A program made the translations under genes and the position numbers. Below are positions 5,694 to 24,328 of a stretch of 64,000 bases of DNA, piece after piece. Under the pieces are notes generated by a model. It was not told where the DNA came from. It did not search any database and worked only from the letters and a program-made list of their open reading frames with translations. Source of the DNA: Streptomyces sp. CB01635 (lineage in GTDB: Bacteria; Actinomycetota; Actinomycetes; Streptomycetales; Streptomycetaceae). Within the stretch, counting starts at the first letter, position 1; every line of letters begins with the position of its first letter. The DNA lies in assembly GCF_002803065.1 (NCBI RefSeq), contig NZ_NNBL01000009.1, forward strand, positions 73,131-137,130. Reading direction: 5' to 3'.

Positions 5694-5707
5694 TGGAAAC
5701 GTTTCCA
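5694..5707. promoter_or_regulatory. Perfect 14-bp palindrome, likely LacI-family operator
   Basis: TGGAAACGTTTCCA is a perfect inverted repeat with the central CG step typical of LacI/GalR-family sites. It ends 16 bp before the TTG start of the LacI-type gene at 5724. Position and symmetry suggest autoregulation. I saw no second copy in front of the isomerase or transporter genes downstream. Confidence 0.7.
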
Positions 5708-5723
5708 CAAGGAGGTGGGGCGG

Positions 5724-9046: not shown

Positions 9047-9520
9047 ACTTGGTCGCCCTCACGGTGCATCGTGGTGTGATCCCCAGCGCTCACCCACCCC
9101 GCAGACCACCGCCCGCCCGAGTGGGTGCCGGCGATCTGGGTCGTTGGGATTTCGGTCATGGTCACACTCGCGCGTAGGTGGTCGAACTCCGCGCGCGTGC
9201 TACTGGCGGGTGTTCACGAGTGGGTTTGGTCAGCACCGTCTCGCCACATCAGATGTTGCTTTCCCGTCCGCGCGCTGATCGTTTCCCGGACAGCGGCAGA
9301 CACCTGGCCTGCACCCGGTGTCAAACCTTACGAACCGGCCCTCGACCAGGGCGCAAAGGGGAGGGCGGCCTTCTCCCTTCCCGCCACGCTCCGAACGGGG
9401 CACCTATCCCGGGAGCTCCGTACGCTCCCGCCACTCGTAGACGGGCAAGAGGCCTTGCGAGGTCTCCTACTGACCCGTCGTGGGTGCTCGTACCCCCCCC
9501 AGCAACGGGACCTTGATGTC
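9047..9520. other. Region without a supported gene
   Basis: No frame here has both a start signal and a recognisable product. The right part borders the GH3 remnant and may be its scrambled 5' end. Confidence 0.4.
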
Positions 9521-10190
9521 GAGCCCGGGCATCGGGATGGAAACGATCCCCTCAGGGGGATCGTCAGGGCCTTCGGGGACTTCGAGGACCGCGGGCCGTT
9601 CGACCAGCCGAGCATGCAGGAGCTGTTCGAGCGGCACATCAGCCACGCCAACATCATGTTCGCCTTGACCGCCCTCGCGATCGCGCAGTGGTACAACGCC
9701 GTGCAGGAGGCGGCGCTCGCGCGGCCGCTGGGCATCCCGTTCACCATCTCCAGCGACCCGCGGCACTCCTTCACCGACAATCCGGCGACCGCACTGATGG
9801 CAGGGCCCCTTCGCGCAGTGGCCCGAGCCGCTGGGCCTGGCCGCCATCGGGTCGGAGGAGCTGGTGGAGCGGTTCGCCGATCTCACCCGTCGCGCGGACG
9901 TGGCGGTCGGCATCCGCGGCGCCCTGCACCCGCAGATCGACCTGGCCGCCGAGCCCCGCTGGGCGCGGCAGGCGCACACCTTCGGCGAAGACTCCGGCCT
10001 GACGGCCCGGCTCGGGGCCGCCTACGTCCGCGGCCTGCAGGGAGAGAAGTCGGGGAAGGAGTCGGTCTCGGCGATGGCCAAGCACTTCCCCGGCGGCGGG
10101 CCGCAACTGGACGGCGAGGACCCGCACTTCTCCTACGGCCGCGAACAGGTCAACCCGGGCGACCGCTTCGACCTGCGGCGAGCAGTCGGG
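9508..10190 (+). pseudogene. GH3 beta-glucosidase remnant, frameshifted and truncated
   Basis: The segment reads GTLMSSPGIGMETI in one frame and FDQPSMQELFERHISHANIM through IPFTISSDPRHSFTDNPAT in a second. It then shifts near 9806 to FAQWPEPLGLAAIGSEELVE, ADVAVGIRGALHPQIDLA and EPRWARQAHTFGEDSGLTAR, followed by VSAMAKHFPGGGPQLDGEDP. These are blocks of the N-terminal catalytic domain of a GH3 exo-beta-glucosidase. The protein stops making sense after GREQVNPGDRFDL, before the SDW nucleophile, so roughly half the catalytic domain and the C-terminal domain are missing. At least two frameshifts and two truncations make it non-functional. It lies just left of the regulated carbohydrate genes and is probably a lost member of that cluster. 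Confidence 0.75.
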
Positions 10191-10265
10191 GTGCTGCACG
10201 AAGGCGTTGCCGAATTCGGCCCCCTGCGTGACATGCGTGGCGCTCCTTCGCCTCACCCGATCACC

Positions 10266-10297
10266 AAAACCATACAGTGAATGGTTTTTGGTTGCAA
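10266..10297 (-). promoter_or_regulatory. Leftward promoter with inverted-repeat operator
   Basis: The inverted repeat AAAACC-N11-GGTTTT is at 10266-10288. Read on the minus strand, TTGCAA (10297-10292), a 17-bp spacer and TATGGT (10274-10269) form a sigma70-like promoter with the repeat overlapping spacer and -10. No intact leftward gene follows, so the promoter looks orphaned. Confidence 0.55.
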
Positions 10298-10381
10298 GGG
10301 GTGGGCTTCGGGCGGCCGCGACGCGAGACGGGCTTGCCACTGCTTCGCCGCTTGGCGCGTTGACGTTCTTCGGTTGGCGCA

Positions 10382-10413
10382 TTGACGTTCAGAAACCGAT
10401 CACAATATGGTTT
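10382..10413 (+). promoter_or_regulatory. Promoter of the ABC binding-protein gene with operator in the spacer
   Basis: TTGACG (10382-10387), an 18-bp spacer and TATGGT (10406-10411) lie about 100 bp upstream of the binding-protein start. The repeat AAACC-N11-GGTTT occupies 10393-10413, where a bound repressor would block polymerase. The same arrangement recurs at 19560. A direct repeat of TTGACGTTC (first copy near 10360) precedes it. Confidence 0.7.
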
Positions 10414-10515
10414 TCGAGCGCTGAAGAGCCTGGCGGTAGAGCGTGCCGTCCGGCTGCCGCATGACACCTTGCCGGGAGACGTCTGCCGCCCGGCCCTCCA
10501 GACGGAGAGAACCGC

Positions 10516-12054
10516 ATGAGGATTTCCGCCCGCATAGGGGCATTGACGGCTGGTGCCACGGCTCTGTCCCTGGTACTCACGGGCTGTGGCACGGACGGCG
10601 GTTCCGCCACAGCCGGCACGGCGGAACTCGACATCGCCACACTCACGAACACCCAGAGCCTGGACCCGGCGACCGCGCTCGGCAGCGCCCTGCCGTACTT
10701 CCAGGCGGTCTACGACACCCTCATCAAGCGGGCCCCCGACGGCACGTACAAGCCGATGCTCGCCACGAAGTGGACGTACGACAAGAGCCGCACGCAGCTC
10801 TCGCTCACCCTGCGGCAGGGAGTGAAGTTCAGCGACGGGACCGCCTTCGACGCCCAGGCGGTCAAGGCCAACCTGGAGCACTTCAAGGGCGGCGGAGGCG
10901 GCGGGGCCAAGTACCTCGCCGCGCTCAAGAACGTCAAGGTGGCCGACGCGACGCACGTCACGCTGGAGCTGACGAGCCCTGACCCGGGAATGCTCTTCTA
11001 CCTGAGCGACGCGGCCGGCCTGATGGCGAGCCCGAAGAAGCTGGCCGGCGGCTCCCTCAAGACGAAGCCGGTCGGAACCGGCCCCTACACCCTCGACAAG
11101 GCCAAGACGGCGATCGGCTCCAAGTACGTCTTCGACCGCAAGAAGGACTACTGGGGCGAGGAACTCCCGTACAAGACCCTGACGATCAGCGTCTTCGACA
11201 ACGAGACGGCCGTCGTCAACGGCCTCAAGACGGGCCAGCTCGACAGCGCTGTCCTCCAGGACGCCAATCAGCAGGCGTCCATCGAGCCCGACACGAACCT
11301 CACCAAGTCCAAGCACAGTTTCGACTTCCAGGGGCTTCTGCTCTTCGACCGCGGGGGCGTGCGGACACCGCAGCTGAAGGACGCGAGGGTGCGGCAGGCG
11401 CTCAACTACGCCCTGGACCGCGAGACGATGCTCGAGAAGATCCGCGGCGGCCGTGGCGAGATCACGGACCAGGTCTTCGGTCCCGAGACGAAGGCGTACG
11501 ACAAGAGCCTGGACTCCTATTACCCCCACGACCCCGCCAAGGCCAAGAAGCTGCTCGCGCAGGCCGGTTACGCGCAGGGCTTCACACTGAAGCTGCCGCG
11601 TATGTCCGCCATCGTCAACGACGCCTTGGCGTCGTCGATCGAGGCCGACTTCAAGGCCGTGGGCGTCAAGGTCAAGTGGGACCAGCTCGACGGCGCCACC
11701 GCCCTGCAGAAGATCTTCCGGGAGAAGGCCTACTCCGGCATGGTCATGAACATCGGCCAGTCCTCCATCGACTGGGTGACCATGAACGACCTCGTGGTGC
11801 CGGGGGCGTTCAACCCCTTCGCCACCAGCGACCCGACCGTGAAGAAGCTGCTTCCGCAGGTCCAGGTGGCCAGTGGTACCAAGGCCGGTGACGACGCGTC
11901 GCGCGCGCTCAACAAGCACTTGGTCGAGGAGGGCTGGTTCGCCCCCTTCTACCGGGCGTCCTTCCTGCTGGTGTCGAGCAAGGACGTGAAGGTCGTGCCG
12001 CAGTCCGGGATGGCCGTGCCCTCGATCTACAACTACACGCCCGCCAAGTCCTGA
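10516..12054 (+). CDS. ABC transporter substrate-binding lipoprotein, family 5 (peptide/oligosaccharide type)
   Basis: A 512-residue exported lipoprotein. The ATG at 10516 follows GGAGAG. The signal peptide ends in the lipobox LTGC with Cys24 as the lipidation site. The mature part has SBP_bac_5 features: TLTNTQSLDPATALGSALPY, LRQGVKFSDGTAFDAQAVKA and the KARQAL-like block DARVRQALNYALDRETML. Family 5 proteins bind peptides, nickel or, in several bacteria, oligosaccharides such as cellobiose. GH20, GH1 and GH3 neighbours and the shared promoter-operator favour an oligosaccharide ligand (inference). No permease is adjacent; the Dpp-like permease operon at 21591 lacks its own binding protein and is the likely partner. 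Confidence 0.85.
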   Translation: MRISARIGALTAGATALSLVLTGCGTDGGSATAGTAELDIATLTNTQSLDPATALGSALPYFQAVYDTLIKRAPDGTYKPMLATKWTYDKSRTQLSLTLRQGVKFSDGTAFDAQAVKANLEHFKGGGGGGAKYLAALKNVKVADATHVTLELTSPDPGMLFYLSDAAGLMASPKKLAGGSLKTKPVGTGPYTLDKAKTAIGSKYVFDRKKDYWGEELPYKTLTISVFDNETAVVNGLKTGQLDSAVLQDANQQASIEPDTNLTKSKHSFDFQGLLLFDRGGVRTPQLKDARVRQALNYALDRETMLEKIRGGRGEITDQVFGPETKAYDKSLDSYYPHDPAKAKKLLAQAGYAQGFTLKLPRMSAIVNDALASSIEADFKAVGVKVKWDQLDGATALQKIFREKAYSGMVMNIGQSSIDWVTMNDLVVPGAFNPFATSDPTVKKLLPQVQVASGTKAGDDASRALNKHLVEEGWFAPFYRASFLLVSSKDVKVVPQSGMAVPSIYNYTPAKS

Positions 12055-12105
12055 ACCGAACGGCAGCCGGATAGTTCAGACGGTTGGGACAGTTCAGACA
12101 GCAAA

Positions 12106-12142
12106 GGGGCGCCTCCACCGCAGTCCGCGGTGGAGGCGCCCC
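12106..12142. terminator. Strong hairpin terminator between convergent genes
   Basis: A perfect 16-bp stem, GGGGCGCCTCCACCGC, pairs with its complement around a 5-base loop. It lies 52 bp after the binding-protein stop and 14 bp beyond the GH20 stop on the other strand, so it can serve both transcripts. There is no long T run, as usual for high-GC actinomycetes. Confidence 0.8.
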
Positions 12143-12155
12143 CTGTTATGCGCGA

Positions 12156-13763
12156 TCACGCCCAGGGCACGTCATCGGCGGCGAAGTGGACGAGCCCGCG
12201 ATCGCGCCAGAGCAGCGCGTGCCGGGCGATGCGCTCGCGGTACTCGGCCCACAGAGGAGGCCGGCCCGACCAGGCCGTCTCGGCGACCGAGCCGAGCCGC
12301 GGCAGGAGCAGCGTCGTGAGGTCGTCGATGCCCTGCAGGGTCTCGCCGAACAGGGTCGCCTCGACACCCGCGACGGACTCGTCGGGGATGCCGTGCGAGG
12401 CGGGGTCCCAGGAAGCCGTGTGCCGGACGTCGCGCGGGCGGTAGTGGGGGAAGCCGAGGCGAGCGGCGACCTCCGCCTGGCCGGGAGGCGTCACCTCGGG
12501 TGCGTAACGCCGGTCGAGGTACAGGTGGGACTGCGGGGAGAGCAGCAGTCGGCCGCCGCCCGCGAGGACGCGCTCGACGTCGTGGTCGGACGGGGCGAAG
12601 AAGGACTTGAGCGCCGCGGCGATCTCCATCGTCATGCCGGACGCGGTCAGTTCGGGCCGGGCGGCGAGTTCCTCGGCGGAGCCGGGCAGATCCATCATCG
12701 GCACGTCGACCCAGAACTGTGCGATGTCCTGAGGTCCGGCGCCGGCCCGGGACGACTCCTGCCACGCCACCGGTCGCTTGCCCAACTTCCTTGTGATGCT
12801 TCGCAGTTCGTCCACCGCGACGTGGAACGCGTCCTCCATGATGCCCACCGCTTCGTCGCACCCGATGTGCACGAACGGGCCGTCCGTGAGGGCGCACACG
12901 TCGGCGAGAACGGCGGACACCGCGGTGTGCGTGGCCGCGTCGGCGAGGTCGAGCGGGGGCACGAAGGGGAAGCGGTCCGCCAGCCCTTCGGGGGCGGGCG
13001 CGGGCGGGAGGTCCGGCAGTGCGGCCCGCAGGGCGGCGCAGTGCCCCGGAAGGTCGATCTCGGGGACGATCGTGACGAAGTGCCGCGCCGCGTACGACTG
13101 GAGATCCCGGTACTCGTCCGCCGAGTAGAAGGCCGCCGGTCCGGAGGCGGCCTGACCGGCCGTCAGCGCGGGGAGCGACGGCACTTCGATGCGCCAGCCC
13201 TCGTTGTCGGTGAGGTGCAGGTGCAGCACGTTCAGCTTGTAGAGCGCGGCGAGATCGATGACCCGGCGCACCTCGTCCGGAGTGATGAAGCTCCGCGCGG
13301 GGTCGATCATCAGGCCGCGCCACGCGTAGTGGGGCGCGTCCCGCAGCTGCAGGGCTTCGATCGTGCCGTCGGGCGGTGTCGTCAGGAGCAGTTGGGCCGC
13401 GCTGGTCGCCGCGCGGAAGACACCTTCGGGCGTGCGTGACCGGCAGGTGATGCCGTCGGCCCCGGCCGTCAGGGCGTAGGCCTCGTCGGCCGGCTCCGCG
13501 GTCCCGGTCGGTGCGACGCCGACGGTCGTGCCGAGCGGAACACCGGTCGCATCGAGCGTCAGGACGATCTCGCTGCCGTGGTCCTGCGGGTCGCCTTCGG
13601 GCAGGAGCCGCATGCCGAGGTGCGGTGCCAGCAGCGCCCGTACGGTGTCCGCGACCTCGCTCAAGGAGCGGTCGGCCCGGATGCGCCAGGGCCCTGCGGC
13701 CGCAAGTGAACCGGCGCCGCCCTGGGCGGCTTGCTCGGTCGGGCTGGGGATGACGGCGTTCAT
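12156..13763 (-). CDS. GH20 beta-N-acetylhexosaminidase
   Basis: A 535-residue glycosidase releasing terminal GlcNAc or GalNAc. The ATG at 13763 is chosen because GGAGG lies just upstream on the minus strand; longer frames lack support. The N-terminal part is a GH20b-like domain, followed by the catalytic barrel: WRGLMIDPARSFITPDEVRR, LNVLHLHLTDNEGWRIE and the catalytic Asp-Glu pair in FVHIGCDEAVGI at about residues 300-301. The usual HIGGDE is HIGCDE here. WSGRPPLWAEY near the C-terminus supplies a substrate-stacking Trp region. No signal peptide is evident, so it should act in the cytosol on imported chitooligosaccharide- or glycan-derived sugars. The operator at 13917-13941 lies in the shared upstream region with GH1. 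Confidence 0.88.
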   Translation of the reverse strand: MNAVIPSPTEQAAQGGAGSLAAAGPWRIRADRSLSEVADTVRALLAPHLGMRLLPEGDPQDHGSEIVLTLDATGVPLGTTVGVAPTGTAEPADEAYALTAGADGITCRSRTPEGVFRAATSAAQLLLTTPPDGTIEALQLRDAPHYAWRGLMIDPARSFITPDEVRRVIDLAALYKLNVLHLHLTDNEGWRIEVPSLPALTAGQAASGPAAFYSADEYRDLQSYAARHFVTIVPEIDLPGHCAALRAALPDLPPAPAPEGLADRFPFVPPLDLADAATHTAVSAVLADVCALTDGPFVHIGCDEAVGIMEDAFHVAVDELRSITRKLGKRPVAWQESSRAGAGPQDIAQFWVDVPMMDLPGSAEELAARPELTASGMTMEIAAALKSFFAPSDHDVERVLAGGGRLLLSPQSHLYLDRRYAPEVTPPGQAEVAARLGFPHYRPRDVRHTASWDPASHGIPDESVAGVEATLFGETLQGIDDLTTLLLPRLGSVAETAWSGRPPLWAEYRERIARHALLWRDRGLVHFAADDVPWA

Positions 13764-13916
13764 ACAGTCCTCCACCGGCGGCTCGGTACGCCCGGGGTCC
13801 GGTCGCCGGATCGTCAGGTACGGCGATACAGCGCCCCCGGGCGATCGGGCCGGCCGGGCTGCGCGTTCGTCCCGGCGCCACTTCCTCTCCGACCAGCCCC
13901 ACCTGTACGCTAACAC

Positions 13917-13941
13917 GAAAACCGATCAACGAACGCTTTTC
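13917..13941. promoter_or_regulatory. Operator-like inverted repeat between divergent GH20 and GH1 genes
   Basis: GAAAACC-N11-GCTTTTC matches the locus operator with one mismatch in the second arm. It ends 12 bp before the GH1 start and about 150 bp from the GH20 start. No clear -35/-10 pair overlaps it in either direction, unlike the other four copies. Confidence 0.6.
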
Positions 13942-13953
13942 AGGGGTGGCCGT

Positions 13954-15204
13954 ATGACGTCCTCAGCGCAGTCCGAACTCGTCCTGCCGGATGGCTTCCT
14001 GATGGGTGCGGCCACCTCCGCCCACCAGGTCGAGGGCAACAACACGGGGAGCGACTGGTGGGCCTTCGAGAACCGGCCGGACACCTTCGTGAGCGAGCCG
14101 AGCGGGGACGCCGCCGACAGTTTTCACCGCTGGCCCGAGGACATGGATCTCCTGCGTGAACTCGGCTTCAACTCCTACCGGTTCAGCATCGAGTGGGCGC
14201 GCATCGAGCCGGTGCAGGGGCGCGTCTCGCGCGCCGCCCTCGCGCACTACCGGGACATGGTCCGCGGGGCGATCGAGCGCGGTCTCACCCCGGTCGTGAC
14301 CCTGCACCACTTCACCTGTCCCCAGTGGTTCCACGCGCGCGGCGGCTGGGCGGCGCCGGACTCCGCGGACGTGTTCGCGCAGTACACCCGGACGGCGCTC
14401 GAGGTCCTGCGGGCCGGGGTGAAGTACGTGGCCACGATCAACGAGCCCAACATGGTGGCCCTGATGACCGCCCTGTACCGGCGCGCCGCCGAAAAGGGCG
14501 CGGGCGACGCGGGCGCCGCGGCGGGCTTCGCCTCCGTCGAGCCGGCCACGGACGTCACCCAGGCCCTCATCCGCGCCCACCACGCCGCGACCGAGGTCCT
14601 GCACGAAGCCGGTCTGGGGCTGCAGGTCGGCTGGACCGTCGCCAACCAGGTGTACCAGGCCGAACCGGGTGCCGAGGACGTCGCGGCGGCCTACGCGTTC
14701 CCGCGTGAGGACGTGTTCCTGGAGGCCGCGCGTGGCGACGACTGGATCGGCGTGCAGGCCTACACGCGCCACCTCATCGGCGTGGACGGGCCGCTGCCCG
14801 TCCCCCAGGGCGCCGAGACGACGCTGACCGGCTGGGAGTGGTACCCCGAGGCGCTGGGTGAGGCCGTGCGGCACACCGTCGACGTGGTCGGCCCCGGCGT
14901 ACCCGTCATGGTCACGGAGAACGGCATCGCGACCGGCGACGACGAGCGCCGCATCGACTACACCACCCGCGCTCTGGAGAGCCTCGCGGCGGTCATGGCC
15001 GACGGCATCGACGTACGCGGGTACCTCCACTGGAGCGCCCTCGACAACTACGAATGGGGCACCTTCCGGCCGACGTTCGGGCTGATCGCGGTCGACCCGG
15101 ACACCTTCGCCCGCACCCCCAAGGAGTCGGCCCGCCGGCTCGGCGCGCTCGCCCGCTCGGGCCGCATCCCGCACGCCCCGGCCGCCGCGCTCAGCGCACG
15201 CTAG
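13954..15204 (+). CDS. GH1 beta-glucosidase
   Basis: A 416-residue cytoplasmic glycosidase cleaving beta-linked disaccharides such as cellobiose. The ATG at 13954 follows AGGGGTGG. GH1 hallmarks are FLMGAATSAHQVEGNN at the N-terminus, YRFSIEWARIEPVQG, the acid/base Glu in ATINEPN (about residue 165), the nucleophile Glu in VTENGIAT (about residue 322), and LHWSALDNYEWGTF near the end, which shapes the glycone site. At 416 residues it is slightly shorter than the typical 440-480. It is followed 10 bp later by a TetR gene, so the two are probably co-transcribed and co-regulated through the operator at 13917-13941. Confidence 0.92.
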   Translation: MTSSAQSELVLPDGFLMGAATSAHQVEGNNTGSDWWAFENRPDTFVSEPSGDAADSFHRWPEDMDLLRELGFNSYRFSIEWARIEPVQGRVSRAALAHYRDMVRGAIERGLTPVVTLHHFTCPQWFHARGGWAAPDSADVFAQYTRTALEVLRAGVKYVATINEPNMVALMTALYRRAAEKGAGDAGAAAGFASVEPATDVTQALIRAHHAATEVLHEAGLGLQVGWTVANQVYQAEPGAEDVAAAYAFPREDVFLEAARGDDWIGVQAYTRHLIGVDGPLPVPQGAETTLTGWEWYPEALGEAVRHTVDVVGPGVPVMVTENGIATGDDERRIDYTTRALESLAAVMADGIDVRGYLHWSALDNYEWGTFRPTFGLIAVDPDTFARTPKESARRLGALARSGRIPHAPAAALSAR

Positions 15205-15214
15205 GCTGGCTGAC

Positions 15215-15796
15215 ATGGCAAAACGGGGCCCGTACGAGAAGGGCGAGGCGAAGCGCGCCGAAATCCTGCACGCGGCACTGGAGATCTTCGCCAGCGAGGG
15301 ATACCGCGGCACGTCGCTGCGGAAGGTGGCGGCCAAGTGCAACCTGAGCCTGCCCGGTCTCATGCACTACTTCGACTCGAAGGAGGACCTGCTGACGCAG
15401 GTCCTGCGGATGCGTGACGAGGAGGCGCGGGTCCGGCACGCGGAGCGGGCGGACCCGAAGAGCTACCGAGAGATCATCCGGGAGGGCGCGAGCACGCCCG
15501 GACTCGTGGAACTGTTCGTGTCCATGGCGGCGGCCGCGAGCGATCCCGGGCATCCGGCGCACGCCCTCTTCGCCGAGCGCTATCCGACGATGCGCGAGCG
15601 CACGGCGGACTATCTGCGCAGGCGGATGGACGAGGGCACGCTCCGCTCGGACATTCCGCCGGAGCGGCTCGCGGTCCTGTTCCTCGCCCTGGCCGACGGA
15701 ATCCAGCTGCAGTGGCTGATCGACCGGTCCACCGACATGGAGCAGCCCATCGACGACGTGATGAGCCTGCTGGAGACGGAGCCGGACAAGGCGTAA
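15215..15796 (+). CDS. TetR family regulator, candidate controller of the carbohydrate locus
   Basis: A 193-residue regulator starting at ATG 15215, ten bases after the GH1 stop. The N-terminal helix-turn-helix reads RAEILHAALEIFASEGYRGT then SLRKVAAKCNLSLPGLMHYF. The C-terminal ligand domain (RLAVLFLALADGIQLQWLID) matches a TetR_C pattern found in streptomycete sugar-linked regulators. Being in the GH1 transcription unit, whose upstream region carries the AAAACC-N11 repeat, it is the best candidate to bind the five operator copies in this locus. This is inference from position; the TetR at 20634-21329 is the alternative. Confidence 0.85.
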   Translation: MAKRGPYEKGEAKRAEILHAALEIFASEGYRGTSLRKVAAKCNLSLPGLMHYFDSKEDLLTQVLRMRDEEARVRHAERADPKSYREIIREGASTPGLVELFVSMAAAASDPGHPAHALFAERYPTMRERTADYLRRRMDEGTLRSDIPPERLAVLFLALADGIQLQWLIDRSTDMEQPIDDVMSLLETEPDKA

Positions 15797-15819
15797 CGGT
15801 TCAGCGCCGCGAGATGTGA

Positions 15820-15855
15820 AGAGGGCCGGAGGCGGTGCACCGTCTCCGGCCCTCT
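15820..15855. terminator. Hairpin terminator between convergent tetR and serine hydrolase genes
   Basis: AGAGGGCCGGAG pairs with CTCCGGCCCTCT around an inner CGG-TGCA-CCG; only one base pair in the stem is mismatched. It lies 23 bp after the tetR stop and 26 bp from the opposing stop. Confidence 0.75.
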
Positions 15856-15881
15856 GTGCGTCGGCGCGTGGCCTCAGCCGT

Positions 15882-17087
15882 TCACCACGAGCCTGCGGCC
15901 AGGCCCGCGGCCCGGTGGATGGCCCGGGTCCACGGACTCCAGCGCGGGTCGGGGCCCCGGGATCCGTCCCACGTCATCTCCGTGCAGGTGTAGCCCACGG
16001 CCAGGCCGCTCTCCGGGTGCGCCATGCCCAGGCGGCCGCCCGCTCCGGCGTGGCCGAAGGAGCCCTCGCCGAGCATCGGCAGTCCGGGGCGCGGGAGTTC
16101 GAAGCCGAGGCCGAAGCGCGCGGGGTGCGTGTGCGCGGGGCGGCGCAGCGGCGCGGGCGCGGGCAGATGGTCGGTGCGGGGTGCCCGTGCCCGCTCCACC
16201 GTGAGCGGCGACAGCAGCCGCACACCGTCGACGTGGCCGATGAGTGCCGCGTAGAGCCGGGCCAGGCCGCGCGCGTTGCCGATGCCGCCTGCCGCGGGGA
16301 TCTCGGCGGCACGGCCCTGCCGGGAGCGCAACGCGGTGGTGACGGCGGTGAGTTCGGCCATGGACGCCAGGATCGAGCGGGCGAGCCGGTCGTCCGGTGT
16401 GAGGCCGACGGAGCGCAGGGCCGCGGTGATCTCTTCGGGCGTGGGCGGCGATCCGGGATGGTGCTGCTGCACGAACCTGTGCTCCTCGTGCGGTGGCAGC
16501 CCGATCCACAGGTCGAGTCCCAGCGGGCCGGCGACCTCGGCGGCGAAGAACGCCCCGACGGTGCTGCCGGTGACCCTGCGCACCACCTCGCCGACCAAGT
16601 GGCCGTAGGTGAGCGGGTGGTAGTGGAAGGCGCTGCCGGGCCGCCACACCGGCCGCGCGTCCGCGAGCCGGGCCACGCACCCGTCCCAGTCGAGCAGATC
16701 GACGGCGGCGGCATCGGCCGGGTCACCGGTGAAGGCCGGCAGCCCCGCGCTGTGGGTGAGGAGATCGGCGACCGTCGTCCCGGCCTTGCCGTTGCGTGCG
16801 AACTCCGGCCAGTAGCGGGAGACGGGGTCTGCGACATCGAGCTCGCCGTTCTGGCTGAGCATCTGGACGCAGACCGCCGCCAAGCCCTTGGTCACGGACA
16901 TCAGCACGCCCACCGACTCCGGCCCGAAGGGACGGGTACCGGCCGGTCCGACGGCCGTCCAGGCATCCACGACCAGACGCCCGCGCCGGTAGACCGAGAG
17001 CTGCGCCGAACCGGGGTCCCGCGCCTGGGCCTCGGCGAACGCGTCGAGCACCGGCTCCCAGCCGGCTGCCGCCTCACCGTCGATCAC
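15882..17087 (-). CDS. Serine hydrolase of the class C beta-lactamase/esterase fold
   Basis: A 401-residue protein of the EstB/LACTB-like penicillin-binding fold. The nucleophile Ser is in SVTKG (about residue 62, S-x-x-K motif). The second motif is YHPLTYGHLVGEVVRRVTG, where the usual Y-x-N is replaced by the Y-rich pattern seen in EstB-type esterases; GHAGAGGRLGMAHP near the C-terminus supplies the third motif. No signal peptide. The GTG start at 17087 overlaps the GH3 stop by GTGA, so it is translationally coupled to GH3. Substrate unknown; an esterase that deacylates an imported glycoside is a possibility (inference). Confidence 0.82.
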   Translation of the reverse strand: MIDGEAAAGWEPVLDAFAEAQARDPGSAQLSVYRRGRLVVDAWTAVGPAGTRPFGPESVGVLMSVTKGLAAVCVQMLSQNGELDVADPVSRYWPEFARNGKAGTTVADLLTHSAGLPAFTGDPADAAAVDLLDWDGCVARLADARPVWRPGSAFHYHPLTYGHLVGEVVRRVTGSTVGAFFAAEVAGPLGLDLWIGLPPHEEHRFVQQHHPGSPPTPEEITAALRSVGLTPDDRLARSILASMAELTAVTTALRSRQGRAAEIPAAGGIGNARGLARLYAALIGHVDGVRLLSPLTVERARAPRTDHLPAPAPLRRPAHTHPARFGLGFELPRPGLPMLGEGSFGHAGAGGRLGMAHPESGLAVGYTCTEMTWDGSRGPDPRWSPWTRAIHRAAGLAAGSW

Positions 17088-19414
17088 CGTGGGTCCCTCA
17101 TCCGGGGTTCCCCTCCGGCCGCCTCCGCCGCCACCTTGGCCGACAGCGTGATCACGTCCTCGGGGCCGACACTGCTCTGCGGGAAGTCGGCGATGACGTC
17201 GAGGGGAATTCCCGCGAGGAAGCGACGCATCACCGGATCGGCCAGGGCACCCCCGTTCCCGCCCGTGGCCGCGCGGCCACGGGCGAAGGCATCGCCCAAC
17301 AGCGGTCCCCCAACAGGGTGTTCCAGCCACTCCGCCAGAGTGTGTCGACCTGTCAGCAGAATCTGGGAAGGGTCTCCGTCGAGCGTCACCGGAACGGTGA
17401 GCCTGATGTCCCGGGACGAGGCCGCCGCCTCGAAGTGGTGGACACCGCCCTCCACACGCCACTTCGCCTCGCGCTCGCTGTAGTGGGCGAGGTCGGACCG
17501 GTTCACGCTCACGCGTACCTCTGCCTCCTCACCTGGCGCCAGCTCCACGGACGCGAACCCGCGCAACTCGCGCTCAGGGCGGGCCACTCGGCTGCCGGCC
17601 GGCCCCCGGCTGTAGATCTGTACGACCTCGCGCCCGGCCCGCTGCCCGGTGTTGGTCACCCGTACCCGCAGGTCCAGACGTGAGCCGTCGGTCCCCGGCA
17701 GCACCGTCAGGCCCGAGTACGTGAACGTCGTGTAGGACAGCCCGTGCCCGAAGGGGAAGGCGACCTCGCTGCGGCGTGCGTCGTAGCCGCGGTAGCCGAC
17801 GAACACGCCCTCCCCGTAACGGACATGTCCCTCCTCGCCGGGGAAGGACAGATGGGACGGGGAGTCCTCCAGGCGCAGCGGGATCGTCTCGGCGAGCCGG
17901 CCCGACGGGTTGACCGAGCCGAACAGAACACATGCGAGCGCCGCGCCGCCGCCCTGGCCGAGGAGCCAGCCCTCGACGAGGGCCGGCACCCGCTCGTGCC
18001 AGGGAGCGGTGCGGACCACACCGCCGTTGGACAGGACCACGACGGTCCGCGGGTTGGCCGCGACGACGCGCTCCAGGAGATGCACCTGTGCTTCGGGCAG
18101 GTCGATGTGGTCGCGGTCGAAGCCCTCCGACTCGTCCTGTGCCGGCAGTCCGAGGAAGAGCAGCACGGTGTCGCTGCGGGCGGCCAGCCGCTCGGCCTCC
18201 CCGACGAGATCCTCGACCCCTTCCGCGTCGACGCCCGGCATGACGTAGCCGGCGGCGAACGTGACATCCGTACCGTCCGCCGCCTCACGCAGGCAGTTCA
18301 GCGGTACGTCCAGCCGGGTCGGGGTGACCTGTGAACTGCCCGCGCCCTGGAAGCGCGGGGTGCGCGCCATCTCGCCGATCACGGCGACGGTCCCGGAGTC
18401 CGGGGCCAGGGGCAGGAGTTCGCCGTCGTTCTTGAGCAGGACGATGCAGCGTTCCGCGGCCGCCCGGGCCAGTTCGTGGTGTGCCTCGTACGACACCTCG
18501 ACGGCTCCGGTGCCGTCGGCCGCGGTGGCCCGGTGCGCGAAGCGGGCGAGCCTGACGGCCGACCGGTCGAGCGCCTCGGCGTCCAGCTCGCCGCTCTCCA
18601 CGGCCGCCACGACCTCGGCGTCGGTCCGTCCGCCCGTCCCCGGCATCTGCAGGTCGAGTCCGGCCCGCAGCGCCGCGACGCGGTCGCGCACCGCCCCCCA
18701 GTCGGACATCACGACGCCGTCGAAGCCCCATTCGGTGCGCAGGATGTCGGTCAGGAGGCGGTGGTTCTCGCTCAGCGGTACGCCGTTGAGCGCGTTGTAG
18801 GCCGCCATCACCGACCAGGGGCGGTCCCGGCGGACGATCCGTTCGAAGGCGCGCAGGTAGATCTCGCGCAGCGGCCGCTCGTCGATGTCGGCGCTGACCC
18901 GCATACGGTCGGTCTCCTGGTTGTTCGCCGCGTAGTGCTTCAACGCGGCGCCGACACCCGCCTCCTGCAGTCCGCGCACCATCGCGCCGCCCAGCTCGGC
19001 GGTGACGAGCGGGTCTTCGGAGAAGTACTCGAAGTTGCGTCCGCACAGCGGTGACCGCTTGATGTTGATGCCGGGACCGAGCACGACGTGGACGCCGTGG
19101 GCCCGTGCCTCGGCGGCGATGGCGGCGCCGACCCGTCCTGCGAGCTGCGGGTCCCAGCTGCTGCCGAGCGCGACGGCCGGGGGAAAACAGGTGGCGGGTG
19201 CCGCGCTGTGCAGGTCGACCTGGCCGCCGTCGCCCTGCTCCTTCGGCAGCCGCAGTCCGTGCGGCCCGTCGGACAGGGACACGGCGGGGACATCCCCTGC
19301 TGCTCGTGTGACGAAGTCACCCGCGCCGCTGGTCAGCGACGCCTTCTCAACGAGCGACAGTTCGTCGGCCGCGACGGGTGCGCCGGGTGCGGAGGAGTGG
19401 TGCTGGTGGGTCAT
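17084..19414 (-). CDS. GH3 beta-glucosidase
   Basis: A 776-residue glycosidase in the three-domain GH3 arrangement. The N-terminal barrel has VSLSDGPHGLRLPKEQG, LGPGINIKRSPLCGRNFEYF, LKHYAANNQETDRMRVSADI and the nucleophile Asp in VVMSDWGAV (about residue 236). The central alpha/beta sandwich begins after VAAVESGELD and holds the ECIVLLKN-type block RCIVLLKNDGELLPLAP. The C-terminal fibronectin-III-like domain shows VRVTNTGQRAGREVVQIY. No signal peptide, so probably cytosolic. The promoter with an embedded operator at 19465-19496 drives it leftward together with the coupled serine hydrolase. Confidence 0.93.
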   Translation of the reverse strand: MTHQHHSSAPGAPVAADELSLVEKASLTSGAGDFVTRAAGDVPAVSLSDGPHGLRLPKEQGDGGQVDLHSAAPATCFPPAVALGSSWDPQLAGRVGAAIAAEARAHGVHVVLGPGINIKRSPLCGRNFEYFSEDPLVTAELGGAMVRGLQEAGVGAALKHYAANNQETDRMRVSADIDERPLREIYLRAFERIVRRDRPWSVMAAYNALNGVPLSENHRLLTDILRTEWGFDGVVMSDWGAVRDRVAALRAGLDLQMPGTGGRTDAEVVAAVESGELDAEALDRSAVRLARFAHRATAADGTGAVEVSYEAHHELARAAAERCIVLLKNDGELLPLAPDSGTVAVIGEMARTPRFQGAGSSQVTPTRLDVPLNCLREAADGTDVTFAAGYVMPGVDAEGVEDLVGEAERLAARSDTVLLFLGLPAQDESEGFDRDHIDLPEAQVHLLERVVAANPRTVVVLSNGGVVRTAPWHERVPALVEGWLLGQGGGAALACVLFGSVNPSGRLAETIPLRLEDSPSHLSFPGEEGHVRYGEGVFVGYRGYDARRSEVAFPFGHGLSYTTFTYSGLTVLPGTDGSRLDLRVRVTNTGQRAGREVVQIYSRGPAGSRVARPERELRGFASVELAPGEEAEVRVSVNRSDLAHYSEREAKWRVEGGVHHFEAAASSRDIRLTVPVTLDGDPSQILLTGRHTLAEWLEHPVGGPLLGDAFARGRAATGGNGGALADPVMRRFLAGIPLDVIADFPQSSVGPEDVITLSAKVAAEAAGGEPRMRDPR

Positions 19415-19464
19415 TCGGCCTGCCCGGAGAGGTGTATCGACATGGCTGAAGAGTCAGCCAATTA

Positions 19465-19496
19465 AAAAACGTAAGGTGATCGGTTTTAGCTGTCAA
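19465..19496 (-). promoter_or_regulatory. Promoter of the GH3 gene with operator in the spacer
   Basis: On the minus strand, TTGACA (19496-19491), a 17-bp spacer and TACGTT (19473-19468) precede the GH3 start by about 50 bp. The inverted repeat AAAACC-N11-GTTTTT covers 19487-19465. Confidence 0.75.
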
Positions 19497-19559
19497 GGTG
19501 TCCCGGCAAGTGGTGCGGTGCGCCGGGCGGAGCCGCCCAAGGTGTCGCGCGCAGACGGA

Positions 19560-19591
19560 TTGACGGCCAGAAACCGATCACTCTATGGTTT
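19560..19591 (+). promoter_or_regulatory. Promoter of the SGNH hydrolase gene with operator in the spacer
   Basis: TTGACG (19560-19565), an 18-bp spacer and TATGGT (19584-19589) with AAACC-N11-GGTTT at 19571-19591. It is a near copy of the element at 10382-10413: same hexamers, same spacer length, same AAACCGATCAC core. It is divergent from the GH3 promoter 60 bp away. Confidence 0.75.
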
Positions 19592-19696
19592 TCAAGCTCG
19601 GTCGATCCAGCCCGAGCGACGAACCGGTGTACACGCCCAAGCCGCCGAAGACGTGCGCTCATGCCGCCCTTGCCGCTCACGAGAAGAGGTACAGCT

Positions 19697-20644
19697 GTGC
19701 CGCTGCACCGTTCGCACCATTCGTCCCTGAAGTCCTCATCCGCAGGAGGCGTCCGGCGCCCTCTGCTGCGCGCCGCCGTTTCCGTAGGCACCGCCGGGCT
19801 CGTGGGTCTGGCCCTCGTCCAGCCCGCGGCGGCCAACTCGGGCGACCAGGTGCGCCCGTCGCACGCCAATCGCGCCGCTGCCCCGGTGCGTTACGTCGCG
19901 TTGGGGGACTCGTACAGCTCCGGACTGGGCATCCCCGACGAGGTCGAGCCGAACTGCGGCCGCTCCGACAGCAATTACCCCTCACTGGTCGCCGAGGCTC
20001 TGCACGCCGCCAGCGTCACCGACGTGACCTGCGCCGGCGCCGACACGAGCCACATGGCCGGGCCACAGGAATCCGCGCCTCCCCAGCTGGACGCCCTGCG
20101 CCCGGACACGACCCTGGTCACCCTGGGGATCGGCGGCAACGACCTGGGCCTCCAGGAAGTCGGAACCCGCTGTGTCCTGGTCGCGTATCTCGATCCGAAC
20201 GGGTCTCCCTGCAAGACGAGTTACACCCTGCTCGGCACCGACGAGATCCGCTCGCGCATCAATACCACCGCGCCCAAGATCGACGCGATCCTCCAGGAGA
20301 TCCACGCCCGCTCACCGCAGGCGAAGGTGCTCCTGGTCGGCTACCCGGCGATCATGCCCGACGACGGGTCCGCGTGCCGCGACGCCATCCCCTTCGCGGC
20401 GGGCGACTTCGCCTGGTTCCGCGACAAGGAGAAGGAGCTCAACTCCATGCTCTCCCAGCAGACCTCCGTCTACGGCGCGACCTTCGTCAACACCTACTCC
20501 CCGTCGGTGGGGCACGACGCCTGCAAGGCCGAGGGCGTGCGCTGGATCGAGCCGAAGGAGACGCCGGAGGCCGCCGGCTTCCACCCCAACGCCGCGGGGC
20601 ACCGCAGCATGGCCGCCGAGGTGCTCGCGAGGATCAACCCGTGA
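19697..20644 (+). CDS. Secreted SGNH/GDSL hydrolase
   Basis: A 315-residue exported esterase/lipase. GTG at 19697 is preferred over the in-frame ATG at 19661 because GAAGAGG precedes it. The N-terminus has a basic stretch and a hydrophobic core ending VQPAAANS, a signal peptidase I-type peptide. Block I is RYVALGDSYSSGLGIP (catalytic Ser), the Gly/Asn blocks include LVTLGIGGNDLGL, and block V is EAAGFHPNAAGHRSMA with the catalytic His. This pattern matches streptomycete SGNH lipases/phospholipases of the SCO1725/SCO7513 kind. Its promoter-operator ties it to the carbohydrate regulon, so it may de-esterify polysaccharide-derived substrates outside the cell (inference). Confidence 0.88.
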   Translation: MPLHRSHHSSLKSSSAGGVRRPLLRAAVSVGTAGLVGLALVQPAAANSGDQVRPSHANRAAAPVRYVALGDSYSSGLGIPDEVEPNCGRSDSNYPSLVAEALHAASVTDVTCAGADTSHMAGPQESAPPQLDALRPDTTLVTLGIGGNDLGLQEVGTRCVLVAYLDPNGSPCKTSYTLLGTDEIRSRINTTAPKIDAILQEIHARSPQAKVLLVGYPAIMPDDGSACRDAIPFAAGDFAWFRDKEKELNSMLSQQTSVYGATFVNTYSPSVGHDACKAEGVRWIEPKETPEAAGFHPNAAGHRSMAAEVLARINP

Positions 20645-21329
20645 CCGGGCCCGGCGCGGAATCCTCGGCGGAGCCGGTCACGTGAAGGCCGTACCGGCCG
20701 AGGAAGTCACGTACCAGCGCTTCCATCGGCACCGCGTCGGGCTCGAGCAGCCACTGCGTCTGCAGGCCGTCCATCAGGGCGATCAACTGCACGGCGGCCG
20801 TGCCCGGTTCGGCCTTCACCGGGGGATCGGCCGTGGCGAACAGCGCCTCCAGCAGCGCGCCCAGCTGCTCCCGCAGCCGCCGGTAGCGCGCGACGAAGTA
20901 GGGGTGGGCGGGGTGGTCCGGTGCCGTCGCCTCCGCCGAGACTTTCGCGTACAGGGCCACGATGCCGTGGGCCCGGCTGTTGCGTGCGACGAACTCGACG
21001 AGCAGCCGCAGCCGCTCGGTGGGCGAGGGCTCGGGAGTCCCGTGTCCGAGGACGCGCGGGAACGCCTTCGCGGCATCGGCCGCGTCCCGGCGGGCCAGCA
21101 CCTCCAGGAGCAGCGCCTCCTTGCCCGGGAAGTGGTGGAGCAGTCCCGCGTGCGTGAGACCGGCGTGCGCGGCGATCTCCCGGAGCGACACGGAGCTGAA
21201 CCCCGACCTGGCGAACAGTTCGGCCGCCGAGTCGAGGATGCGGGCGCCGGTCCGCTCACCCTTGGTACGGGGCTCGTGGGGCGTACTTGGCTCCTGGGGC
21301 AAAGGACGTCCTTCCGGGGGGCTTCGCAT
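20634..21329 (-). CDS. TetR family transcriptional regulator
   Basis: A regulator of up to 231 residues, overlapping the 3' end of the convergent SGNH gene by 11 bp. The helix-turn-helix reads ARILDSAAELFARSGFSS then SLREIAAHAGLTHAGLLHHF. The C-terminal domain AAVQLIALMDGLQTQWLLEP resembles that of the TetR at 15215, so the two are paralogues. The ATG at 21329 has no good ribosome binding site; an in-frame TTG at 21302 with GGAAGGA upstream may be the true start. The palindrome ACCAGCTGGT at 21395-21404 lies between it and the permease operon and is its likely operator, suggesting that it controls the importer. Confidence 0.85.
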   Translation of the reverse strand: MRSPPEGRPLPQEPSTPHEPRTKGERTGARILDSAAELFARSGFSSVSLREIAAHAGLTHAGLLHHFPGKEALLLEVLARRDAADAAKAFPRVLGHGTPEPSPTERLRLLVEFVARNSRAHGIVALYAKVSAEATAPDHPAHPYFVARYRRLREQLGALLEALFATADPPVKAEPGTAAVQLIALMDGLQTQWLLEPDAVPMEALVRDFLGRYGLHVTGSAEDSAPGPVTG

Positions 21330-21392: not shown

Positions 21393-21406
21393 TTACCAGC
21401 TGGTTA
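21393..21406. promoter_or_regulatory. Palindromic operator between tetR and the importer operon
   Basis: TTACCAGCTGGTTA has a perfect 10-bp palindromic core (ACCAGCTGGT), as expected for a TetR site, placed 64 bp upstream of the tetR start and 185 bp before the permease. A separate imperfect hairpin follows at 21423-21451 (CCTAC and GCGGT arms around an AAAA loop); its role is unknown. Confidence 0.6.
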
Positions 21407-21590
21407 AATCCCTCCCGGCGAACCTACTCGGCGGTAAAAACCGCAGGTAGGGTCGCCTCACGATCTCGTCCGCCGAAGCGGTGCGGGACGTCCCATGCGC
21501 CGCGCCCGGCCCTGCCCCAGAGCGGGGCCACCCCAACCCGGCGCGGTTCACGCCGGCCGATTCGGCCGCCGGTCACGGATACCGAGACAC

Positions 21591-22535
21591 ATGCTGACCT
21601 TCATCACCCGCAGGATCGCCGCGGGAGCGGTACTCCTGCTCGTCATCTCGTTCCTCTCCTACGTGCTTCTGTCGATCCCTGACATGGATGTGGGGCGCCA
21701 ACTCCTCGGCGAGGGCGCGTCGCAGAACGTCATCGACGCCAAGAACGCCCAGCTGGGACTCGACCGACCGGTCCTCGCGCAGTACACGGACTGGCTCTCG
21801 CACGCCGTCCGCGGGGACTTCGGCACGTCCTGGTTCTCCAGCGAGGACGTGTCCCAGGCCATCGCCAACCGGCTGCCCGTGACCGTGAGTCTCATGCTCG
21901 GCGTCACCGTCGTGACGGCCCTCGTCTCGTTCCTGCTCGGCGCGTGGGCCGGGGTGCGCCGCGGCGGCGCCGTCGACCGCGCCGTCCAGATCCTCGGCGT
22001 ACTCGGCTACGCGCTCCCCGGCTTCCTGGTGACGCTGATCCTCGTGCTGATCTTCGCGGTCCGGCTGAACTGGTTCCCCGCCATCGGATACATCCCGTTC
22101 ACCGAGTCACCCGGAGGGTGGCTCTCCACCGTCACCCTGCCGGTGATCTCCCTGTCGGTCGCCTCCGTGGCGGGCGTCTCCCAACAGGTGCGCGGCGCCG
22201 TCATCGACGTCCTGCGCCAGGACTACGTCCGTACGCTGCGGGCCCGCGGGCTGCCCCCGTCCCGCATCGTGCTCAAACACGTCCTGCGCAACGCCTCCGC
22301 GCCCGCCCTGTCCGTCCTCGGTATGCAGTTCGTCGGCCTGCTCGGCGGCGCTGTGCTCGTCGAGCAGATCTTCGGCCTCCCGGGCCTCGGCAGCATGACC
22401 GTCACCTACACCACCCGCGGCGACATCCCCGTGATCATGGCGCTCGTCATGCTCACCGTCATCGGTGTCGTCCTGATCAACCTCCTGGTCGACATCATGA
22501 TCGGCTGGCTCAACCCGAAGGCGAGGATCGCATGA
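21591..22535 (+). CDS. ABC transporter permease, DppB/OppB type
   Basis: A 314-residue membrane protein with six expected helices. ATG 21591 starts MLTFITRRIAAGAVLLLVIS, the classic DppB N-terminal helix, followed by the AQLGLDRPVLAQYTDWL extracytoplasmic region and the permease EAA-like loop DYVRTLRARGLPPSRIVLKH. It forms the first half of the membrane channel with the permease domain of the next gene, with which it overlaps by ATGA. The operon has no binding-protein gene; the family-5 lipoprotein at 10516 is the presumed partner. Peptide importers share this architecture, so an oligosaccharide substrate is inferred from context only. Confidence 0.9.
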   Translation: MLTFITRRIAAGAVLLLVISFLSYVLLSIPDMDVGRQLLGEGASQNVIDAKNAQLGLDRPVLAQYTDWLSHAVRGDFGTSWFSSEDVSQAIANRLPVTVSLMLGVTVVTALVSFLLGAWAGVRRGGAVDRAVQILGVLGYALPGFLVTLILVLIFAVRLNWFPAIGYIPFTESPGGWLSTVTLPVISLSVASVAGVSQQVRGAVIDVLRQDYVRTLRARGLPPSRIVLKHVLRNASAPALSVLGMQFVGLLGGAVLVEQIFGLPGLGSMTVTYTTRGDIPVIMALVMLTVIGVVLINLLVDIMIGWLNPKARIA

Positions 22536-24328
22536 GCGAGAAACTCCCTGCCGATCCGGCACCGACCGCGAAGACCCCGGCGGACCCCGGCCGTTCCCGC
22601 GGCATCCTCCGGCAGCTCGTCCGCAATCCGCTGGGCGCCGTCTCCCTGACGGTCCTTCTGCTCCTGGTCGCGGCGATGCTGCTCGCCCCGCTCCTCGCAC
22701 CCCAGGCCCCTGGGGACGCGTCGCTCGCCGACGCCTTCGCCGCGCCGAGCTCCGGCCACCCGCTGGGCATGGACTCCGCCGGCCGCGACATCCTCTCGCG
22801 GATCCTGTACGGCGGGCGCAACACCCTCGGCGGTGCCGTCATCGCCCTCGGTATCGCGCTCACGCTCGGCATCCCCCTCGGCCTGTACGCCGGCTACTAC
22901 GGAGGCCGCTTCGACTCCGTCGCCAACTGGCTCGTGAACCTCGTCATGGCGCTGCCCGCCATGGTCGTACTCCTCGCCTCCCGCGCCATCCTCGGCCCCA
23001 ACGTCTGGGTCCTGATGGTCGTCCTCGGCTTCCTGGCCTCCCCCAGCTTCTTCCGTCTGGTGCGAGGCATCGTCGCGAACGTCCGGGGCGAGTTGTATGT
23101 CGACGCCGCGCGCGTCTCCGGACTCTCCGACACCCGCATCGTGGCCCGCCACGTCCTCACCGTCGTCCGCGGCCCCATCATCATCCAGGTCGCCCTCGTG
23201 GCGGGCATCGCCATCGCCCTCCAGGCCGGCCTCGAATTCCTCGGCGTCGGCAGCGGTGACTCCGCGACCTGGGGCGCCATGCTCAACGAGGCGTTCCAGA
23301 ACATCCAGCGCCGGCCGGTCCTGCTGCTCTGGCCCGGACTCGCCCTCGGCCTGACCAACGCCGCCCTCGTCCTCATCGCCACGGCCCTGCGGGACTCCCT
23401 CGAGGACCGCGCGGGACAACCGCCCCGGCGTACCCGAACTCCCGGCCGCACGGCCGACTTTGTGGCACCCGCGGACACCGGCGAGGAGCGGGCCGGGCTC
23501 CTGTCGATCCGCTCGCTCGCCGTCTCCTACCCCGGACCCAGGGGCAGCGACAAGGAGGTCGTGCACGAGGTCGACCTCGATGTGCGACCCGGCGAAATCG
23601 TCGGCCTGGTCGGCGAGTCGGGCTCCGGCAAGACGCAGACCGCGTTCTCCGTGCTCGGCATCTTCCCCGAGGGCGGCCGGATCAGCCGCGGCAGCGTCCT
23701 CATCGCGGGCCGGGAAGTCGTGGGGATGCTCGAACGGGACCACCGCGCCCTGCGCGGCACGACCGTCGCGTACATCCCGCAGGAACCGATGAGCAACCTC
23801 GACCCGGCCTTCACCATCGGCAGCCAGCTCATCGAACCGATGCGCCACGTCCTCGGCCTCTCCCGCAAGCAGGCCGCGGAGCGCGCCGTCGACCTGCTCC
23901 ACACGGTCGAGATCCCGAACCCCGAACAGGCCATGCGCCGCTACCCGCACGAGATATCCGGCGGCATGGCCCAGCGCGTACTCATCGCCGGCGCGATGTC
24001 CTGCGACCCCGCACTCCTCATCGCCGACGAACCCACCACCGCCCTCGACGTCCGCGTCCAGGCCGAGGTACTGGACCTGCTGCGCCGCCTCCAGCAGGAG
24101 CGCAACCTGGGCGTACTGCTCGTCACCCACAATCTCGGCGTCGTCGCGGACCTCTGCGACCGGGTCGCCGTCATGAACAAGGGCCGCATCGTGGAGACGG
24201 GCACCACCGAGCAGGTGCTCCACGCCCCGCAGGACGACTACACCCGCACCCTGCTCGACGCCGTTCTCGACACCGCCCCCGCACGGGAGCCCTGGCAGCC
24301 CCGCGAGGCAAGGAGCACCACCGTATGA
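22532..24328 (+). CDS. Fused ABC permease-ATPase (DppC-DppD type)
   Basis: A 598-residue fusion. Residues 1-300 are a DppC-type permease: LVRNPLGAVSLTVLLLLVAA, HPLGMDSAGRDILSRILYGG and the EAA loop YVDAARVSGLSDTRIVARHV. A proline/arginine-rich linker at about 290-325 joins it to a DppD-type ATPase with Walker A GESGSGKTQT, Q-loop YIPQEPMSNLDP, signature SGGMAQRV and Walker B LLIADEPTTALD. The C-terminal oligopeptide-type tail (DDYTRTLLDAV) is present. Such permease-ATPase fusions occur in actinobacteria. ATGA overlaps at both ends make the three importer genes one translationally coupled unit. Confidence 0.92.
   Translation: MSEKLPADPAPTAKTPADPGRSRGILRQLVRNPLGAVSLTVLLLLVAAMLLAPLLAPQAPGDASLADAFAAPSSGHPLGMDSAGRDILSRILYGGRNTLGGAVIALGIALTLGIPLGLYAGYYGGRFDSVANWLVNLVMALPAMVVLLASRAILGPNVWVLMVVLGFLASPSFFRLVRGIVANVRGELYVDAARVSGLSDTRIVARHVLTVVRGPIIIQVALVAGIAIALQAGLEFLGVGSGDSATWGAMLNEAFQNIQRRPVLLLWPGLALGLTNAALVLIATALRDSLEDRAGQPPRRTRTPGRTADFVAPADTGEERAGLLSIRSLAVSYPGPRGSDKEVVHEVDLDVRPGEIVGLVGESGSGKTQTAFSVLGIFPEGGRISRGSVLIAGREVVGMLERDHRALRGTTVAYIPQEPMSNLDPAFTIGSQLIEPMRHVLGLSRKQAAERAVDLLHTVEIPNPEQAMRRYPHEISGGMAQRVLIAGAMSCDPALLIADEPTTALDVRVQAEVLDLLRRLQQERNLGVLLVTHNLGVVADLCDRVAVMNKGRIVETGTTEQVLHAPQDDYTRTLLDAVLDTAPAREPWQPREARSTTV

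Follow-up and report, generated by a model that had tools for sequence, protein, structure and literature searches.

The question raised by this locus is which protein reads a 21-bp inverted repeat (OP1) that occurs five times between 10.2 and 19.6 kb of the window, the window being the whole 64-kb stretch of Streptomyces DNA that was analysed. Two genes for TetR-family regulators, TetR1 (15215) and TetR2 (20634), lie in the same gene cluster, and the best overall explanation, to which we give a probability of roughly 0.8 from comparison of related clusters, is that TetR1 reads OP1 and represses the cluster promoters, with TetR2 acting separately on a second operator, OP2. The genes concerned are as follows.

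10516-12054, plus strand: family-5 solute-binding protein (SBP_bac_5; SBP)
12156-13916, minus strand: GH20 beta-N-acetylhexosaminidase-like protein, start codon unsure
13954-15204, plus strand: GH1 beta-glucosidase-like protein
15215-15796, plus strand: TetR1, the putative OP1 binder, 10 bp behind GH1
15882-17462, minus strand: beta-lactamase-fold serine hydrolase, homology beginning near 17110
17084-19414, minus strand: GH3 beta-glucosidase/arabinopyranosidase-like protein
19661-20644, plus strand: SGNH/GDSL hydrolase
20634-21329, minus strand: TetR2, the putative OP2 binder
21495-25179, plus strand: Opp-type ABC transporter genes (permease; permease-ATPase fusion; ATPase), putative OP2 target

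Both regulators contain the TetR_N domain (PF00440; 51.4 bits for TetR1 and 60.2 bits for TetR2, cut-off 24), are 33% identical to each other and are surrounded by the GH1, GH3, GH20, SBP and Opp genes. The GH20 start is placed differently among relatives, with tblastn matches beginning at residue 1 in 5 of 16 related clusters and at residues 10-77 in the other 11. The nearest match of GH3 is 5wab, with a score below the arabinopyranosidase cut-off, and GH3 and the serine hydrolase probably form one operon. The five OP1 copies, with their scores in the matrix described below, are:

10267-10287, minus strand: copy 1, over a minus-strand promoter, score 34.8
10393-10413, plus strand: copy 2, in the SBP promoter, score 31.1
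13919-13939, plus strand: copy 3, between GH20 and GH1, score 30.0
19466-19486, minus strand: copy 4, in the GH3 promoter, score 32.9
19571-19591, plus strand: copy 5, in the SGNH promoter, score 32.5

The original prediction placed five repeats of the class AAAMC-N11-GKTTT here, always in intergenic DNA. Four of them are exact matches, the only ones in the 64 kb and all inside 10266-19591, with no match in any of 100 shuffled sequences; the fifth, at 13919-13939, is one mismatch away (arm GCTTT). The intergenic position holds with respect to intact genes, but the end of a decayed GH3 frame (9864-10280) runs into copy 1. Across the whole 10.06-Mb, 61-contig genome, the loose pattern was found at nine places, four of them in this cluster. 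A sharper pattern refined from relatives, AAACCGWWCANNNNAYGKTTT, gave 15 places at up to three mismatches, comprising the five cluster sites (0-1 mismatch), one site with two mismatches and nine with three, and the same pattern reversed, used as the control, gave four places per strand. The five cluster sites are thus the sole genome places within one mismatch, indicating that the OP1 regulon is local. This also bears on the reading that some other regulator uses OP1, either a global one or, for example, the LacI-family protein encoded at 5406-6719. LacI proteins are frequent sugar regulators, and this gene lies only 3.5 kb from OP1 copy 1; however, the sequence retrieved around related clusters contained no homologue of it above 32% identity, on which ground it was rejected as the binder, and a global regulon was rejected because OP1 is confined to the cluster, with no further genome site within one mismatch. 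Such a reader is therefore highly improbable.

Four OP1 copies overlap sigma70-like promoters, with hexamers and spacers just as had been described from the window. The SBP promoter (TTGACG 10382-10387, TATGGT 10406-10411; copy 2) and the SGNH promoter (TTGACG 19560-19565, TATGGT 19584-19589; copy 5) share both hexamers and the spacer, each being TTGACG-N18-TATGGT. On the minus strand, the GH3 promoter reads TTGACA (19496-19491), N17, TACGTT (19473-19468) at copy 4, and a further promoter at copy 1 reads TTGCAA (10297-10292), N17, TATGGT (10274-10269). In all four, the -10 hexamer (TAYGGT or TACGTT) falls within the right arm of OP1 and the spacer between -35 and -10 takes in the left arm; the embedded hexamer can explain why the two arms, AAACCGATCA and AAACCGTA, are unlike. 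Copy 3 sits just behind a TACGCT hexamer (13906-13911) that recurs at this position in the GH1-side flanks of most orthologous sites; on this sequence arrangement, copy 3 may lie at the GH1 transcription start point. The promoter at copy 1 faces no intact gene. Next to it, at 9425-10280 on the plus strand, are the remains of a GH3 glucosidase gene, frameshifted and cut off at copy 1, of which the open piece 9864-10280 matches Glyco_hydro_3 (1.2e-13) and the piece 9425-9745 matched no family. Since the decayed gene ends at copy 1, this copy is probably an orphan that formerly belonged to a lost gene.

The repeat is conserved in front of orthologous genes, which supports the original reading of a shared operator and a local carbohydrate regulon. 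Of 392 genomes belonging to the genus, 12 contain the refined pattern exactly, and it is these 12 that also carry both a close TetR1 (at least 74% identity; next best 47%) and a close TetR2 (at least 63%; next best 51%). In 11 of them, the sites share a contig with both TetRs, the twelfth (G116) being too fragmented to tell. One further genome among the 392, G010, has a close TetR1 and lacks TetR2. Within the divergent GH3/SGNH region of 15 clusters (window included), identity is 0.88 in the operator columns of either side, compared with 0.39 and 0.38 in the upstream flanks, 0.52 and 0.44 in the downstream flanks, and 0.87 and 0.83 in the -35 columns. Being as conserved as the -35 and overlapping the -10, OP1 could be taken for a promoter element of an alternative sigma factor and no operator at all. 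This reading is scarcely credible: OP1 has two-fold symmetry, stands at either of two distances from TTGAC that differ by one base (N17/N18), follows the -10-like hexamer at GH1/GH20 and tracks a repressor-type gene.

The two OP1 sites of the GH3/SGNH region (19466 and 19571 in the window, plus those of 14 related clusters) are spaced by 93, 102, 104, 105, 113, 115 or 126 bp. These spacings tend towards whole numbers of helical turns (R 0.80 at 10.5, reached by 0.2% of random sets), in a post hoc comparison of related genomes whose broad peak is highest near 11.0.

Related clusters were collected by a TetR2 scan and by whole-genome searches, and since most Streptomyces clusters hold both TetRs, the informative ones are those with only one. 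Sites were scored with an OP1 matrix built from 22 distinct exact sites of 18 loci (16 with both TetRs, L015 and G010, locus L055); the best background score was 12.0 in 441 kb of unrelated loci, and the threshold of 15 was chosen once the scan had been made. Of the 18 clusters with both TetRs, 16 are among the matrix loci; the held-out loci are L065-L068 and L109-L144. OP1 was found in 18/18 clusters with both TetRs (score at least 34.2) and in 3/3 with TetR1 and no TetR2, namely G010 (29.4), Embleya sp. NBC_00888 (32.3) and Arthrobacter sp. ERGS1:01 (32.3; TetR1 49% identical), where the lack of TetR2 in Embleya and Arthrobacter refers to the cluster stretch. In Arthrobacter, OP1 lies 51 bp before tetR1 itself. 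By contrast, none of the 11 clusters with TetR2 alone has OP1 (best score 1.9). OP1 thus occurs in 21/21 clusters with TetR1 vs 0/11 with TetR2 alone (Fisher p 8e-9, kinship of clusters ignored). Left out of these counts were L015 (OP2 present, but the contig stops short of the OP1 region), the fragmented G116, L061-L063 (same contigs as L014, L012 and L019) and the loci with TetR2 relatives of 38-46% identity (L020-L030, L120-L124); in none of these last loci was OP1 seen. Searching for TetR1 elsewhere in the TetR2-only genomes gave no match at E 1e-38 among 394 genomes, and the best match in Nonomuraea, which is TetR2-only, was 39% identical.

A tree of 81 TetRs, from which 11 rows (near-identical copies, one double) had been dropped beforehand, placed TetR1 (14 members, 100/100) and TetR2 (25 members, 100/99) in separate clades, together with a neighbouring clade of 10 (100/96) whose exact relation to TetR1 is not settled. 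Members of this neighbouring clade are 39-47% identical to TetR1, and 8 of the 10 have OP1-like sites scoring 15.5-31.1 within 400 bp upstream, a level of 15 or more that was reached by 0/1015 background windows; of the two exceptions, L142 has no site, and the only one of L126, scoring 14.1, is elsewhere in its locus. Among ten remoter relatives (L068, L129, L132, L134, L135, L139-L141, L143 and L144), only L132 passes 15 upstream. Because OP1 follows TetR1 and not TetR2 across clusters, and because of the neighbouring-clade sites, the original choice of TetR1 as the best candidate binder is supported by these sequence comparisons.

Weak best sites with a AAACCTAGC half were seen at L129:2967, L132:13878, L143:12004 and L144:7978, all of one TetR clade, and only that of L129 is upstream of its own TetR gene. 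In the TetR alignment, the recognition helix ends in HYF in TetR1 orthologues and in HHF in TetR2 orthologues; this is possibly a specificity position, yet several HYF relatives are without clear OP1.

The main competitor for OP1 within the cluster is TetR2, alone or as a TetR1-TetR2 heterodimer. TetR2 was the leading candidate after the genus tally, which ties both TetRs to OP1, since G010 with TetR1 only had no exact site; it was dropped once drifted sites were found at the same places in G010 and OP2 was recognized. The G010 sites score 25.2, 16.3, 29.4 and 26.2, against a lowest score of 28.2 in the other loci of the matrix scan, and its SBP, GH20 and GH3 genes are each split in two frames, by either decay or assembly errors. 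That OP1 drifted where TetR1 was kept and TetR2 was lost is unexpected if TetR1 is the sole reader, and counts mildly against it. The unlike OP1 arms would likewise suit a heterodimer, for which the 33% identity of the two proteins also speaks, although the -10 hexamer in the right arm can explain the asymmetry more simply, and the argument from the arms was rejected on that ground. Against any part for TetR2, OP1 persists without it in Embleya, in Arthrobacter and before 8/10 neighbouring-clade TetRs, it is absent from 11/11 TetR2-only clusters, and TetR2 has a putative operator of its own. We therefore consider a TetR2 or heterodimer reader unlikely and retain TetR1 as the probable reader of OP1.

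The putative operator of TetR2, OP2, is a palindrome (YTACCANNTGGTTA) between tetR2 and oppB that the original prediction had missed, with a second copy recognized by eye:

21393-21409, no strand assigned: OP2 (TTACCAGCTGGTTAAAT), the only genome match within one mismatch
21424-21437, no strand assigned: degenerate second OP2-like copy; 9 of 17 aligned loci have CCTACCAAGTGGTTAATT there

No OP1 was found in the tetR2/opp (or tetR2/SBP) region. By a strict pattern, OP2 is present in 17/17 aligned loci, six of which have two copies 31-33 bp apart. With a matrix built from these loci (match at a score of 16 or more), OP2 precedes tetR2 in 27/29 clusters with TetR2, the misses being L117 (11.5) and L119 (0.6), and is found in 0/3 clusters without TetR2 (best 12.3), giving a Fisher value of 0.002 with kinship of clusters ignored. 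The background of 6/1015 windows of 430 bp indicates that OP2 is less specific than OP1. The SGNH-opp region of G010 has neither tetR2 nor OP2, and no OP2 was seen in five remoter TetR2 relatives (L120-L124, 44-46%).

Among seven TetR2-only clusters that show GH1, OP2 lies before GH1 in five (L066, L109-L112; not L114 or L118) and before GH20 in four (L109-L112; not L066, L114 or L118), the GH20s of these clusters being only 36-40% identical to that of the window. Like genes thus stand under OP1 where TetR1 is present and often under OP2 where it is missing. SBP is behind OP1 in the window and, in most relatives, beside opp and behind OP2. A fuller picture, in which paralogous TetRs with mutually insulated operators split the cluster, GH1, GH20 and SBP swap operators in evolution, and the GH3/SGNH pair of OP1 sites is bridged by repressor, is offered here only tentatively.

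Around these sites, we infer an operon structure, TetR1 binding, repression and a ligand as follows. TetR1 would be made from a GH1-tetR1 operon and bind OP1 as one dimer or two, blocking the core promoter at four sites and covering the transcription start at GH1. Its predicted targets are SBP, GH20, GH1-tetR1 (autoregulation), the GH3-serine hydrolase unit and the SGNH hydrolase, and it would be released by a ligand, the probable candidate being a beta-glucoside-type glycoside or a product of it. TetR2 would separately bind OP2 and control itself and the Opp transporter.

On the substrate side, the nearest solved relative of the cluster GH1 is SGR_2426, a sophorose-specific GH1 of S. griseus (PMC12369401). 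The window GH1 is identical to it at Trp291, Gln229, Met171 and Asn228 (alignment positions counted by eye), and so keeps the subsite +1 residues of that enzyme. SGR_2426 differs in sitting in another cluster, SGR_2422-2427 with GH193, and the term TetR is absent from the main text of PMC12369401. The likely substrate is a beta-glucoside, which may be beta-1,2-linked or may be a decorated plant glycoside. Saponin or tomatine degradation was considered on account of 39% identical TetR1 relatives on plasmids of Sphingobium strains named Tom, and was rejected after the one record examined, TomMM7A, proved to lack a matching cluster, with one beta-galactosidase at its edge.

The analysis provides a two-regulator map for a glycoside-degrading cluster that is common to Streptomyces and other actinomycetes. 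It also provides a set of natural variants of the cluster (with both TetRs, with TetR1 only or with TetR2 only) whose operators changed along with the regulators, which is useful for the study of operator exchange between paralogues, and two repressor-operator pairs that are probably orthogonal. It alters no general idea of gene regulation, and it would extend a predicted kind of sugar regulator, as the comparison with known families indicates.

By E-value, the best NCBIfam match of both TetRs is the ScbR-family autoregulator-binding factor model (NF041196); however, their scores of 52.0 and 56.9 bits fall short of the 150-bit cut-off, and their neighbours here are glycoside hydrolases and transporters. 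The original prediction assigned the operator to no named regulon. Nothing on an operator or regulator of such a cluster was found among the literature matches listed, but the kind had been predicted: BgrT proteins are TetR-family beta-glucoside/beta-galactoside regulators predicted in bifidobacteria and other actinobacteria, with 18-22 nt palindromic operators and local regulons (Khoroshkin et al. 2016, PMC4746261). TetR1 and TetR2 resemble them in family, in the position of their genes among beta-glucosidases and transporters, and in having a small local regulon. Both TetR genes lie beside such hydrolases and transporters, and OP1 is a 21-bp palindrome with a local regulon; OP2, modelled over 14 bp and conserved in its flank to about 17 bp, is borderline in length for TetR2. 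Further likenesses in PMC4746261 are the several BgrT paralogues with different operators per genome and the sharing of one regulatory region by BgrT2 and BgrT4 sites. On the best reading of these sequence features, OP1/TetR1 would be a new member of the predicted BgrT kind, both TetRs looking and being placed like BgrTs.

The tree, which had no labelled BgrT among its rows, joins three TetRs of one Bifidobacterium genome to the TetR1/TetR2 part on a long branch whose position is not settled; the TetR of another Bifidobacterium locus, L033, was set aside as unrelated. Two of the three are beside GH3 genes and are preceded by TTACCGACCGGTTGGTAA and TTACCAAACGGTAA, palindromes much like OP2 that lie between the TetR and GH3 genes (L145:2221-2238 and L146:2145-2158). 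These suggest that OP2 is an old BgrT-type motif. The comparison with the BgrT motifs is by description, and the BgrT regulons were predicted in bifidobacteria, whereas the cluster of Streptomyces and its relatives combines two paralogues with two dissimilar operators, and the -10 hexamer is part of OP1.
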